IMG/VR virus record: IMGVR_UViG_3300048772_000033
Location: 1 to 21,024 of that record
Length of the DNA: 21,024 bases
Reading direction: 5' to 3' (one strand)
From: a virus
A program made the translations under genes and the position numbers. Under the pieces are notes generated by a model. That model did not search any database. It worked only from the letters and a program-made list of their open reading frames with translations, and was not told the DNA's origin. Positions 2,070-20,527 of this stretch are shown here, one piece after another (position 1 is the first letter of the stretch; the number at the start of each line of letters is the position of its first letter).

Positions 2070-3158
2070 ATGGCCACCAACATCGTCCAGTCTGATCAGC
2101 CGAGCATCTACGACACGCTCTCGACGCTGCGGACCGCCAACCCGGATCAGTACGCGGCCATCGTGCGCCCGGACAAGCCTCCGTCGGGCATCGGCGGGTT
2201 CGTTTTCGACATCCCCGGAGACGAGGAAGTGCGGATGAAGGCCAACATCAGCCGGCATTACGTCGAGAGCAACGTGCCGATTGCGGACCACATCGCCCTT
2301 GAGCCCGAGCAGATCACCCTTCGCGGCATGGTGGCCGAGATCGCGGTGGTGCAGAAGACCGTCGTGCCGACGAGCCGGGCGGTCGGAGTTCTCCCTCTCT
2401 GCTGCCCGATGATGCCGCGCTTGACAGCCGGCGTTGTGAGCAAGCTGGCCGGGCTCGCAGTCGGCAACGTGATGGGGAAACTGCCCGGCGTGGCGGGCAT
2501 GGGCGCGGCGACCGCAGCAGCCATTCTCAACGGCGGAACGGTCCCAGGAGCGGCGATGGTTGCCACCGGGCAGGCCGCGCTGGCGCAGGCCGCGGCGAAC
2601 GTGTCAGGGCTCCCTGCGGGCACCACCTCGGCACTGCTGGGCATGGCCTCCAGCGGGATCGCTTCCAATCTCGCGTCCGCACTGTCGAGTCTCACGGGTT
2701 CCTCGGGCTCCTCCGGGATGCGGACAGCGGGGCTCATGCTCGCTGAGGCTGCGCAGGCTGCCGCTGGTGAGGGAGCGCAGAGCGTGTTCTCGTATTACCA
2801 GAGTCAATACGTGTTCAGCTCGCGGCAGACCACGGCGTTCACATACTTTCAACAGCTTTGGTTCGGGCGGCAGACCTGTTCCGTCGAGACGCCCTGGGGC
2901 ATCTACACGAACATGGCGATTGCCGAAGTGCGCGCGGTTCAACCGAAGGAGTCCAAGGGCTACTCGGACTTCACGGTCGTCTTCGAGAAGATCCGCGTGG
3001 CCGGGGACATCACCGTGCAGGTCGGCCCGCTGCAGGGGCGCGACGTGATCGGGGAGCCCTCGGTGACGACGAGCATCGGGTCGTCCACGGCGAGCTATCC
3101 GGTGCTCAACAAGACTCTGTCAGGACTGAACGGCTTGAATCCTAACCTCGGACCCTGA
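2070..3158 (+). CDS. Dit-like baseplate/tail protein
   Basis: A 362-residue structural protein. Residues about 40-92 hold F-V-F-D-I-P-G, then an S-R-H-Y-V-E-S segment with an A-D-H-I core and a Q-I-T-L-R-G motif. This is the pattern of the Dit-like N-terminal domain of phage tail proteins that join tube to baseplate. A long Ala/Gly/Ser-rich linker follows (about 125-240). The C-terminal part (about 255-330) has T-P-W-G-I-Y-T-N-M and a D-F-T-V-V-F strand, as in baseplate proteins of this set. The gene sits between the tape measure and the plug gene, and its stop overlaps the next ATG as TGATG. The domain call is from memory of the family pattern. Confidence 0.65.
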   Translation: MATNIVQSDQPSIYDTLSTLRTANPDQYAAIVRPDKPPSGIGGFVFDIPGDEEVRMKANISRHYVESNVPIADHIALEPEQITLRGMVAEIAVVQKTVVPTSRAVGVLPLCCPMMPRLTAGVVSKLAGLAVGNVMGKLPGVAGMGAATAAAILNGGTVPGAAMVATGQAALAQAAANVSGLPAGTTSALLGMASSGIASNLASALSSLTGSSGSSGMRTAGLMLAEAAQAAAGEGAQSVFSYYQSQYVFSSRQTTAFTYFQQLWFGRQTCSVETPWGIYTNMAIAEVRAVQPKESKGYSDFTVVFEKIRVAGDITVQVGPLQGRDVIGEPSVTTSIGSSTASYPVLNKTLSGLNGLNPNLGP

Positions 3159-3520
3159 TGGCTCTCATTCTCACAGGTCAAACGCCCGATCCGGTTCAAG
3201 TGTGGTCCATCGCGCTTCCCAGCGGGGGCACGCTGACCGTCACGGCGACATATCGGGCGCAGCAGCTTGGGTGGTATCTCGACCTGTCGTGGGACGGTCA
3301 GACGCCTCCTTGGGTCTGCACAGGGGTTCGGTTGGTGTCATCGCCAAACCTGCTGCGCCAGTTCCGCAACCGGCTCGGGTTCGGCCTCGGGTGTGTCATG
3401 GTGGATGGGTCAGACCCATCGAGCCAAACGTCTTTCGTCGATGGGACCTGCACCCTGATTCTACTCACCGCCGCTGACGTGGCGGCGTTCGAGGCTGTCT
3501 TCTATCCGGGGAACCCCTGA
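3158..3520 (+). CDS. Baseplate plug protein, cyanophage Pam3 gp18-like
   Basis: A 120-residue all-beta protein. Its opening resembles the small plug domain described in the cyanophage Pam3 baseplate: a short N-terminal strand, an L-P-S-G-G-T-L-T-V-T-A-T-Y core, the W-Y-L-D-L-S-W-D-G strand near residues 38-46 and a later L-L-R-Q-F-R-N-R-L-G-F segment. The plug seals the central channel below the tape measure. Position between the Dit-like and hub genes agrees, with TGATG overlaps at both ends. A 7-bp inverted repeat at 3404-3420 lies inside the gene. Confidence 0.68.
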   Translation: MALILTGQTPDPVQVWSIALPSGGTLTVTATYRAQQLGWYLDLSWDGQTPPWVCTGVRLVSSPNLLRQFRNRLGFGLGCVMVDGSDPSSQTSFVDGTCTLILLTAADVAAFEAVFYPGNP

Positions 3521-6784: not shown

Positions 6785-7311
6785 TGGCCAGAGACCTACA
6801 GACATGCGGGGCATACTACGGCTCCCGACTGGCGATCCAGTACCGCGGGCAGCCCAAGGCGCAGGCGACGATCCAGCTCTTGACCAAGCAGGCCATGGGC
6901 GACCTGATGATTCAGGACGTGCAGGACGCTTGGGACCTTGCCACGGCCGTAGGCCCGCAGCTCGACACCGTGGGTAAGTACATCGGCCTCTCACGCAACG
7001 TGTCCGTGACCCTGACACGGCCCTACTTCGGCTTCGTGCTCTATGCGGGAGGTGGGAACACCAACGGGTTTCAGGGATACGGTCCTGGGTATGTGCTGAT
7101 CGGGGTTGAAGGCTACGATCCGCTTACCGGCTATACCAACGGCACCATTACGTCACTCAACAGCGGGTACAACTGGGGTGGCAATGGCACGCTGACGGTT
7201 CCAGATATCACCTGTCAGGATGACTTGACCAGCTACTCGGTCGGCACGATCACGGCGCTGAACGGTGGCACAGGCTGGGGAGCAGACGGATCATTGGTAG
7301 TCCCGAATTAA
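6784..7311 (+). CDS. DUF2612-like tail protein, N-terminal half
   Basis: A 175-residue protein. Residues about 10-72 match the N-terminal half of DUF2612 / tail protein I-type baseplate proteins: Y-Y-G-S-R-L-A-I-Q-Y-R, an alanine-rich helix, then A-W-D-L-A-T-A-V-G-P-Q-L-D-T-V-G-K-Y-I-G-L-S-R. Y81-F-G-F follows, as usual in the family. The expected C-terminal half (T-D-x-x-Y-R through L-P-K-P-x-G-V) is missing here and found in the gene at 8057. Instead, the end is glycine-rich with two copies of a GTITxLNxGxxWGxxGxLxVP unit at residues 120-140 and 154-174. Such proteins cap the wedge and anchor fibres. The gene is coupled to the J-like gene by a one-base overlap. Confidence 0.65.
   Translation: MARDLQTCGAYYGSRLAIQYRGQPKAQATIQLLTKQAMGDLMIQDVQDAWDLATAVGPQLDTVGKYIGLSRNVSVTLTRPYFGFVLYAGGGNTNGFQGYGPGYVLIGVEGYDPLTGYTNGTITSLNSGYNWGGNGTLTVPDITCQDDLTSYSVGTITALNGGTGWGADGSLVVPN
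7139..7308 (+). repeat. Two-copy coding repeat in the DUF2612-like N-half gene
   Basis: The 3' end of the gene holds two units about 34 codons apart. Each encodes G-T-I-T, then L-N, then W-G and a closing V-P. The DNA copies differ at many third positions, so the repeat is old or kept at protein level. Glycine and aromatic spacing suggests short beta-repeats on the virion surface. Confidence 0.6.
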
Positions 7312-7312
7312 C

Positions 7313-8053
7313 ATGGCAACAGCACCCGATATTTTCACGAAGTCCTGCACTTACAACGGTACCGAGCCATGCCTGCGGATGCAGACCCGAGGACAGTTGC
7401 TCCGGCTGACTGGGCTCCCGCCGAATTGGAAAAAGGTCCGTGTGGCTATGATCGCGTCGTTGACCACACCAGCAGGAGATAATCTGACACCCGTAGCCGA
7501 GACGATCGCAGCGGTCGGCACTGACATGCACAGGACTTGGCTTTTCGGTCTGAGCAACGGCGTGGCATTTCCCGGCGACGTTGGTGGGGGGCTTTTCGTG
7601 GGGGTGAGACCCTCTCCGCATTTGAATCTCGCTGTTGGCAGTTCATCAGGGTGGAACATATCCGCAGACGGTACACCCGGAGGAAGCGGCACCTGGGCCG
7701 CCCTTTTTACTAACGGAGCAACCATAAGCCCCGACTTCGGAAACGGGAATATGGCTTTGCAGATGACTGACCCAACGGACGTCGTGGCGTACTGTTTTGG
7801 AATGGTGATTGAAATCGATGTGTCCGTTGCGGGCACCCTTACAGTGAGTAAGGGGAATGTGAACAACCTATCCCGAGCCGACAAAGCACAGATGTCTGCG
7901 ATTCTGAACGGGACCGTAGCCGATCCAACAAATATCTCTGGAGGGTGGTGGAGTAGCAGCGTGGCCGTGGCCTGCCAGTATCTCCTGATGCGCTGGCCGC
8001 TTTCCCTCAACTCGATGCGCGTTCACAACTACGACGCAATTCAACTCGCCTGA
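7313..8053 (+). CDS. Unknown virion-region protein inserted between DUF2612-like halves
   Basis: A 246-residue protein that I do not recognise. It is rich in G, S, T, W and beta-branched residues with no signal peptide or TM segment, which suggests a beta-sandwich structural or binding protein. Features include a T-W-L-F-G-L-S-N-G segment (about 75-83), a G-D-V-G-G-G-L-F-V-G-V motif (about 88-98), a V-I-E-I-D-V-S-V-A-G-T-L strand and a mixed C-terminus with S-R-A-D-K-A-Q-M. Base and codon use look less GC-rich than in the baseplate genes. It sits one base after the DUF2612-like N-half and three bases before the C-half, so a role at the baseplate edge is plausible, but this is inference. Confidence 0.6.
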   Translation: MATAPDIFTKSCTYNGTEPCLRMQTRGQLLRLTGLPPNWKKVRVAMIASLTTPAGDNLTPVAETIAAVGTDMHRTWLFGLSNGVAFPGDVGGGLFVGVRPSPHLNLAVGSSSGWNISADGTPGGSGTWAALFTNGATISPDFGNGNMALQMTDPTDVVAYCFGMVIEIDVSVAGTLTVSKGNVNNLSRADKAQMSAILNGTVADPTNISGGWWSSSVAVACQYLLMRWPLSLNSMRVHNYDAIQLA

Positions 8054-19449: not shown

Positions 19450-19785
19450 TCAAATCCTGATGGTCTCTTGACCGTTCAACTCGGCCTCGCGGTCGGACAG
19501 TTCTTCCTCGCGGATTGCAAGCGCGTTCTCGCGAGCATCAAGTTCCTCTTCGCGTACTGAGTCAGCCTCGACCGCCTTTGGCTCCGGGCGGGTCGCCCCG
19601 AGCGAATAGAACGGCGCCACGTCGAGTGACAGGGCGCGGGCAAGGGCGCGGCGGTTGATGTTGAACTCGAACAGGCGCTCGGAGCGGGCGGCACCAAACA
19701 GCGTGCCGTAGAGGGTCACTTCGTCGTTGTCAGATGCTCCGCGGGGCGCGGAACTCTCGATGTATAGGTTGATCTGCTGCTTCAT
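19450..19785 (-). CDS. 111-residue protein with C-terminal coiled coil, unknown
   Basis: ATG at 19785, downstream of a strong stem-loop region (19802-19896). The first 60 residues contain beta-like strands (Q-I-N-L-Y-I-E-S, V-T-L-Y-G-T-L-F-G, L-F-E-F-N-I-N-R-R-A-L). The end (about 77-106) is a charged heptad-like coiled coil with two copies of R-E-E-E-L followed by D-A-R-E-N / S-D-R-E-A-E. No family is recognised. It follows the ssDNA-binding gene after a 142-base gap and precedes the 114-residue gene by three bases. Confidence 0.6.
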   Translation of the reverse strand: MKQQINLYIESSAPRGASDNDEVTLYGTLFGAARSERLFEFNINRRALARALSLDVAPFYSLGATRPEPKAVEADSVREEELDARENALAIREEELSDREAELNGQETIRI

Positions 19786-19801
19786 GTGTAGGGGTTAGGT
19801 T

Positions 19802-19896
19802 GAGGGTGAAAAGAGCCGGCAGGCCGCGAGCGGCATTATCCCGGCAGGTTGAACGCCCGAAGGCACCGACTTTACCTGCCAGCTCTTTTCACCCTC
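19802..19896 (-). ncRNA. Candidate structured RNA: 22-bp closing stem with two internal hairpins
   Basis: Bases 19802-19823 and 19875-19896 are reverse complements over 22 positions with one C/A mismatch (19817/19881), which becomes a G-U pair only in the - strand transcript. Inside the loop, 19855-19864 forms GCC-UUCG-GGC on the - strand, extendable by two G-U pairs, and 19823-19834 forms GCCG-CUCG-CGGC. The result is a three-way-junction-like fold of about 95 bases. An alternative pairing of 19874-19880 with 19843-19849 (7 bp) would break the long stem, so a switch is possible. It lies in the gap between the ssDNA-binding gene and the 111-residue gene. Function unknown; folded by eye. Confidence 0.55.
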
Positions 19897-19920
19897 CCCG
19901 GCTTCGTGGAGCCGAGGAGG
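19893..19920 (-). terminator. Strong hairpin just after the ssDNA-binding protein gene
   Basis: CCTCC-C-CGGCT (19893-19903) pairs with AGCCG-A-GGAGG (19910-19920) around a 6-base loop. The single internal C/A mismatch is a G-U pair on the - strand. It begins 7 bases after the stop of the ssDNA-binding gene. No U run follows, so complete termination is doubtful; attenuation or 3' end protection of the upstream mRNA fits better. Its 3' arm shares four bases with the long stem at 19875-19896. Confidence 0.45.
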
Positions 19921-19927
19921 GATCGTT

Positions 19928-20527
19928 TTACTCCAGCGCGGGGTCGCCTGCGGAGGCGTCATCCTCTGCCGGAAGAGCTTTGAACTCCTTGGTGGGATCA
20001 GCCGGGCCGGCGCCGAACGCCTCGCCCTTGCGGACGAACTGGACGGTGCGCAGCGAGGCGTAGATGCCCTTGCCGTATTCAGGGTGCTTCTTGTCGTCCA
20101 TCGCATAGATCTGGACCGACATGTTGATGTAGCAGCCCGAATAGACCTTCAGGTCCTCCGCCCCGATGGGCGTCAGGTCACGGTCCACAACCGAGATCCG
20201 CTTGTCGGTGGAGGCCGAGAGGTACATGCACCCCGGCCCGTAGCCGTCGGGATACCCGTCGCTGTCCGGGTACTTATGCGGGTCACGGCGCTCCGTGCCC
20301 TCGTGCAGGCAGGTTCCCTTGAGCTTGGGCCACTTGCCCGCGCCCCACTTCTCGTCGCCAACGGCCTTGATGGTCGCCTGGACGAGCTTGATGGCCGCGA
20401 CGTTCTTCGCCTTGTCCATGATTGCGGTTGCGGAATACTTCTCCTTGTCGCCGGGCTTGAAAGCCTTGGCGGTAAAGAGACTCAAATATGAGGCTCTGAC
20501 GTTTTCGAGTACGATGTTGATAGGCAT
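19928..20527 (-). CDS. ssDNA-binding protein, DUF2815 / Enc34 type
   Basis: A 199-residue phage single-stranded DNA-binding protein of the Enc34 (DUF2815) family, which coats ssDNA during replication. Typical features: N-terminal V-L-E-N-V-R-A-S-Y-L-S-L-F with K-P-G-D-K-E-K-Y-S-A-T-A-I-M (about 7-37), K-G-T-C-L-H-E-G in the middle (about 69-76), M-Y-L-S-A-S-T-D-K-R (about 101-110), V-Y-S-G-C-Y-I-N (about 127-134) and a closing strand with G-I-Y-A-S-L-R-T-V-Q-F-V. The acidic tail (E-D-D-A-S-A-G-D-P-A-L-E) is like those SSBs use to bind partner proteins. It lies directly after the DUF2800 gene, the usual pair. Confidence 0.88.
   Translation of the reverse strand: MPINIVLENVRASYLSLFTAKAFKPGDKEKYSATAIMDKAKNVAAIKLVQATIKAVGDEKWGAGKWPKLKGTCLHEGTERRDPHKYPDSDGYPDGYGPGCMYLSASTDKRISVVDRDLTPIGAEDLKVYSGCYINMSVQIYAMDDKKHPEYGKGIYASLRTVQFVRKGEAFGAGPADPTKEFKALPAEDDASAGDPALE

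Follow-up and report, generated by a model that had tools for sequence, protein, structure and literature searches.

Genetic context of the element

The 21,024-nt stretch of viral DNA analysed here (the window) carries a replication operon on its minus strand, and the gap behind the gene for its single-stranded DNA-binding protein (SSB) contains a set of inverted repeats, which raises the question of whether these form a structured RNA and what such an RNA would do at this place. On the list of open reading frames this is the sole sizeable intergenic gap on that strand, as an earlier sequence-only reading had stated; it is 142 nt long (19786-19927) and is followed by a gene for a protein of 111 amino acids and by the DNA polymerase, nuclease and helicase genes. 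The SSB and 111-aa genes lie on the same strand and neither a promoter nor a terminator was called between them, which by prediction makes the element (Table 1) intercistronic. A coding role for the gap was considered and rejected: out-of-frame ORFs spanning it are not conserved, and an in-frame ATG upstream of the 111-aa gene in the related viral contig L004 is closed by a stop codon in the window.

Table 1. Features of the SSB gene end and the element behind it (positions in the window)
Feature	Position	Strand	Evidence or remark
Enc34/DUF2815-type ssDNA-binding protein gene (SSB)	19928..20527	-	Pfam PF10991, E 2.3e-32; directly upstream of the element
P0 hairpin, 12 bp, CCCUCCUCGGCU-CCACGA-AGCCGGGGAGGG	19892..19921	-	folding and pair probabilities
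P1 5' arm, GAGGGUGAAAAGAGCUGGCAGG	19875..19896	-	22-bp inverted repeat; pair probabilities about 1 except in the lowest 5 bp
P1 loop region, 51 nt, alternative small hairpins	19824..19874	-	sequence and fold; diverged in L004
Loop hairpin GCC-UUCG-GGC	near 19852-19867	-	sequence and fold
Loop hairpin GCCG-CUCG-CGGC	near 19823-19834	-	sequence and fold
P1 3' arm, CCUGCCGGCUCUUUUCACCCUC, no U-tract behind it	19802..19823	-	outer 14 bp same in L004
A/C-rich spacer, AACCUAACCCCUACAC, no Shine-Dalgarno, ahead of next ATG	19786..19801	-	sequence; near-identical in L004
111-aa gene, function not assigned, 3' of the element	19450..19785	-	ORF; no Pfam match

Among the collections searched, the only relative of the 111-aa protein was its L004 counterpart (78% identity), and no prophage relatives of its gene were found in the bacterial genomes searched. 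The C-terminal half of the encoded protein is charged and repetitive (window 19450-19785; L004:4302-4658).

Fold of the element

Folding confirmed the structure, and everything that the sequence-only reading had named was found to be present in the sequence. The minus strand of 19786-19930 folds at -71.8 kcal/mol (z = -5.9) and none of 200 shuffled sequences folded as well, while the z-score of the plus strand of the same region is only -2.1. The 22-bp stem (P1), made up of 21 Watson-Crick pairs and one U-G pair (19881/19817), is the best inverted repeat in the entire 21-kb window, and when the positions were checked all four C/A mismatches that had been pointed out on the plus strand proved to be U-G or G-U pairs on the minus strand.

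Other details of that reading were revised. The hairpin ahead of P1, described as 11 bp, is indeed there, but it has 12 bp and it overlaps the long stem, as the last 5 nt of P0 are the first 5 nt of P1 (19892-19896); when the upstream part was shuffled 300 times, this overlap was never reached. The fold with full P0 (-70.8 kcal/mol) and that with full P1 (-71.8 kcal/mol) lie about 1 kcal/mol apart, and thus P0 and the base of P1 should exchange easily. The two hairpins reported in the loop can be drawn from the sequence, but a structure holding both the UUCG and the GCCG-CUCG-CGGC hairpin is about 10 kcal/mol worse (-61.4 against -71.8 kcal/mol) than the best inner fold. A switch had also been proposed in which the 5' arm pairs with either of two copies of CCTGCCGG; pairing with the nearer copy gives -59.2 kcal/mol, 12.6 kcal/mol worse, and is absent in L004, so the proposal is not supported. 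Transcript prefixes of about 95-105 nt form this pairing in folding calculations, so at most it may exist transiently during transcription.

Comparison with the closest relative

L004 was found by a polymerase search (polymerase segment 74% identical), and its gap carries both P0 and P1 in the same position, with P0 kept. Its P1 is 23 bp long including two mismatches, which are pairs lost relative to the window; there are in addition two double-sided compensatory changes (U-G/G-C and A-U/G-C) and one single-sided change (U-G/C-G). With the window and L004 as the only two sequences, 130 of 500 shuffles were as good, and for this pair the covariation is suggestive only. Identity between the two contigs rises abruptly at the 3' arm of P0, which places the element at a module joint as well: the SSB proteins are 44% identical, and the DNA of the 111-aa gene is much closer. 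The 111-aa gene is thus far more conserved than the adjoining SSB gene, as though it were a cassette that had been exchanged, with its joint at the hairpin. In the near relative L005/L006 the SSB gene has no such element. Separately, the match to the polymerase gene in L004 is interrupted at about 6800-8010 by extra, intein-like sequence (LTSDGWKKIEDVLIEDQVWDGESWVCHDGV..) between its N- and C-terminal parts.

Recurrence behind SSB genes

SSB-family loci were gathered from IMG/VR and from named phages, and the 130-nt windows behind 64 distinct SSB stops were compared with those behind 330 other gene ends of the same loci. A z-score below -3 was observed for 34% of the SSB-stop windows and 4.8% of the controls (p = 7e-11), and in the SSB-stop windows folding is better for the sense than for the antisense strand (p = 4.5e-5). 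In a larger set, where only gene ends with 40 nt or more of gap behind them served as controls, a strong stem (score at least 10) was present at 54 of 128 distinct SSB-gene ends and 29 of 283 control ends (p = 6e-13), so that the gap restriction does not remove the effect; P0-P1 composites were found at 22 of the 128 and 9 of the 283, respectively (p = 2e-6). These figures come from thresholds chosen while the data were in view, from sets in which related loci remain after removal of near-duplicates, and from control genes that are simple ORFs.

In the class proposed here a hairpin lies at most about 30 nt from the SSB stop, and its 3' arm reaches or runs into the base of a stem scoring at least 10; the members are the window, L004, L013, L041, and Bordetella phage BPP-1, which has a P0-P1 element after its SSB gene, with its relatives. 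In BPP-1 the homologous piece is NC_005357 36108-36224. In the first set, the five longest stems (window, L004, L013, L041 and BPP-1) all have P0 at the base of P1 and none has a U-tract behind P1. Shuffles of the upstream part rarely give the overlap in the window, L004, L013 and L041 (p = 0 to 0.01); the test is gapless and misses a bulge in BPP-1, where it gives 0.11. Many SSB genes have no such element, and of the near relatives L101 and L107 only one carries a long stem (TCCTCCCCTCGCCC/GGGCGAGGAGAGGA) in the gap after SSB, a gain or loss between close phages. The following gene varies from phage to phage but the element keeps to the SSB gene, and because it recurs whatever gene follows, it is taken to belong to the SSB gene end. 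This makes punctuation of the SSB mRNA likelier than ligand control of the next genes or a free small RNA; regulation of those genes and a processed small RNA were among the roles that the sequence-only reading had put forward.

Covariation and strand

Stronger covariation was found in BPP-1-type phages, whose SSB proteins are 66-93% identical. Their P1 stems open with a U-rich stretch, CGCUUUG or something similar, and close with CAAAGCG, and the arms are otherwise wholly different, so that many positions show three or four kinds of Watson-Crick pair; 93% of positions pair within a phage's own arms as against 45% when arms are exchanged. Several of these stems are 16-19 bp long, below 22 bp, and the P0 loops are mostly UUCG, CUCG or UGCG. 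Across the whole set, UUCG tetraloops number 8 on the sense and 0 on the antisense strand, YNMG loops 17 and 7, and GNRA loops 8 and 3, and stems scoring at least 9 contain 31 G-U as against 12 A-C pairs (p = 0.003). The sense-strand loops and the G-U excess argue for an RNA of the SSB strand, and the earlier claim of a minus-strand RNA structure is well supported by the recurrence in relatives, the covarying helices and the better folding of the sense strand. No clear excess of G-U over A-C is seen in the longest stems (about 9 to 6; about 5 to 4 in the BPP-1 group), which leaves room for upkeep of P1 by template switching or for a role of P1 as DNA.

Other RNAs at the SSB 3' slot

Several RNAs of other kinds were observed behind SSB genes. 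A sequence-conserved motif, GGGGGGAAAGC ... GCGAGUACCCCC (AGUA/GAA, loop-E-like), in which an arm and the tip vary, lies directly behind SSB at L176:2044-2107 and at 13 further loci (L173, L175, L177-L179, L184, L185, L189, L191, L192, L197, L208 and L214); it has no match in Rfam and may represent a new RNA family that occupies this slot. In L173, L175 and L191 (each 2043-2169) its variable tip carries a tRNA-like insert with a T-arm-like GTGAGTTCGAATCTCAC, and ARAGORN called no tRNA in L102, which is from the same contig as L175. A pseudoknot-like conserved RNA, UCGAC-AAGCCGUGAGU-GUCGA..ACUGGAAAUAACCACGGC, with CCGUG/CACGG against CUAUG/CAUAG as the loop pairing and likewise no Rfam match, follows SSB in L137 (Acinetobacter phage 4316, about 1760-1910) and in L085 and L090 (about 3045-3210). 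Rfam places isrK and C4 antisense RNA genes 3' of the SSB gene at L099:3199-3420 and scores a tRNA directly behind SSB at L039:3064-3120, where ARAGORN does not call one.

Known systems and class searches

At lambda tI/sib, the site of int retroregulation, a hairpin and then an overlapping longer RNase III-type stem lie just 3' of the gene; the first of the two acts as a genuine terminator for one promoter, and cutting of the stem leads to decay of int mRNA. The window resembles it in having a hairpin and an overlapping long stem 3' of a gene, with two alternative states of the 3' flank, and differs in that no U-tract is present and that P0 would survive a cut in P1. The overlap is therefore found in the window without the terminator whose read-through forms the RNase III stem, while in L149, L160, L200 and L228 both parts look present; the BPP-1- and enterobacterial-type relatives with U-tracts are closer to tI/sib than the window is. 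The RNase III sites of the T7 early operon are long intercistronic hairpins which split a polycistronic transcript, as the window element would in its own phage operon, but the position is another one, two hairpins overlap in the window and cutting there is inferred. We know of no RNase III site after T7 gene 2.5. RNase III processing of int mRNA and the T7 sites are both cited in PMC5371410, where the minimum for an RNase III target is 22 nt.

At the same place after the same gene, a rho-independent terminator is annotated in Xanthomonas phage FoX4; the window element differs from it by the lack of a U-tract, a far longer stem and a 51-nt loop. Among T4 mRNAs that of gene 32 is the most stable, and RNase E processes it (PMC3014915); this is a similar association of structured RNA and processing with an SSB gene, except that the T4 pseudoknot is in the 5' leader and the SSB family is unrelated. 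The Enc34 paper (PMC5686142) describes the SSB protein and the words terminator and mRNA are absent from it, and in the part of the literature covered by our search no account of RNA elements behind DUF2815 genes was found. The window element is regarded as a variant of a kind known from lambda tI/sib and the T7 RNase III sites.

The window has no Rfam match at gathering score and no tRNA was found in it. A dispersed repeat or miniature transposon was rejected, the element being single-copy in the window, as was a mobile repeat: the two-arm pattern matched only the homologous gap of L004 among viral contigs and nothing among genome contigs. A looser pattern, GGGTGAAAA..TTTTCACCC, gave 19 matches which, L004 excepted, are unrelated inverted repeats without an adjacent SSB gene.

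Proposed role and alternative explanations

It is likely that the element punctuates the mRNA at the RNA level, by processing or by termination. Our main reading, with a probability of roughly 0.55, is that in the window it is mainly an RNase III-type processing site between cistrons; processing is favoured by the position, by the lack of a U-tract and by a duplex of RNase III size, since the 22-23 bp in the window match the continuous double strand of about 20-22 bp or more of such sites. P0 would form first in the minus-strand transcript, and once the 3' arm of P1 had been transcribed the 22-23-bp duplex would close, long enough for the host RNase III. Cleavage of P1 would divide the transcript of the replication operon in two: the SSB mRNA, with P0 left at its 3' end to hold off 3'-to-5' exonucleases, would be long-lived, and the part encoding the 111-aa protein, DNA polymerase, nuclease and helicase would have a cut 5' end and lower expression. 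Against this reading stand the P1 stems of the BPP-1 group that fall short of 22 bp, the many SSB genes that have no such element, the lack of a clear G-U excess in the longest stems and the weak covariation between the window and L004.

That the element is a terminator or attenuator, at which some of the transcripts end behind the SSB gene, is backed by many relatives (L064, L053, L149, L160, FoX4 and BcepNazgul) in which a U-rich stretch comes after a GC-rich hairpin at this position, and in many BPP-1-type and enterobacterial relatives a U-rich stretch (UUUG or UUUUU) stands behind P0, where the same site probably also acts as a terminator. For the window it is unlikely: there is no U-tract behind P0 or P1 in L004, L013, L041 or the window itself (where the tails are UGAAAAGAG and AACCUAAC, respectively), no terminator was called in the gap, and a weak GCCGG..CCGGC hairpin ahead of UCUUUUC in the window, considered as a terminator in its own right, was rejected as it is missing in L004. 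We think it similarly unlikely that the repeat works as DNA, whether as a protein-binding site, a replication signal or a cruciform, or as a palindrome that template switching during replication keeps perfect. Correction of quasi-palindromes by template switching is a known mechanism and would yield arms like those of P1 in the BPP-1 group, nearly all Watson-Crick with fast turnover; the outer 14 bp retained in both the window and L004 would also fit. The better sense-strand folding over the set speaks against a DNA repeat, as do the UUCG and other stable RNA loops on that strand, the overall excess of G-U over A-C and an order of P0 then P1 that is kept relative to SSB transcription.

Control of translation of the 111-aa or later genes, with the P1 and P0 states set by a protein such as SSB or by a ligand, seems improbable. 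The two states are at most 1 kcal/mol apart, the element ends 16 nt ahead of the ATG, and T4 gp32 regulates its own mRNA via a pseudoknot (PMC3014915); against this, the ATG lies in the open A/C-rich spacer in both states, and the next gene differs among phages while the element stays with SSB. Least probable is a discrete small RNA with a function of its own, or the source of one, for although the element is compact, very stable and without an Rfam match, its primary sequence turns over completely between relatives, and even at E up to 5 Rfam returned only chance miRNA models in the gap.

A wider idea, which we regard as doubtful, is that the 3' flank of DUF2815/Enc34-type SSB genes is reserved for structured RNAs, which would have originated or been exchanged there on many occasions and would all set the level of SSB, perhaps through feedback of SSB on its own mRNA end; terminators, overlapping P0-P1 pairs, the GGGGGGAAAGC...GCGAGUACCCCC motif and the pseudoknot-like motif would all be occupants of it.

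Phage replication needs SSB in far larger amounts than the polymerase of the same operon. For unequal products from one operon, a recurrent RNA element right behind the SSB gene offers a simple and testable account, and such an element occurs in many phages including the laboratory phage BPP-1, among which natural variants allow a terminator and a processing hairpin to be compared at one fixed position.
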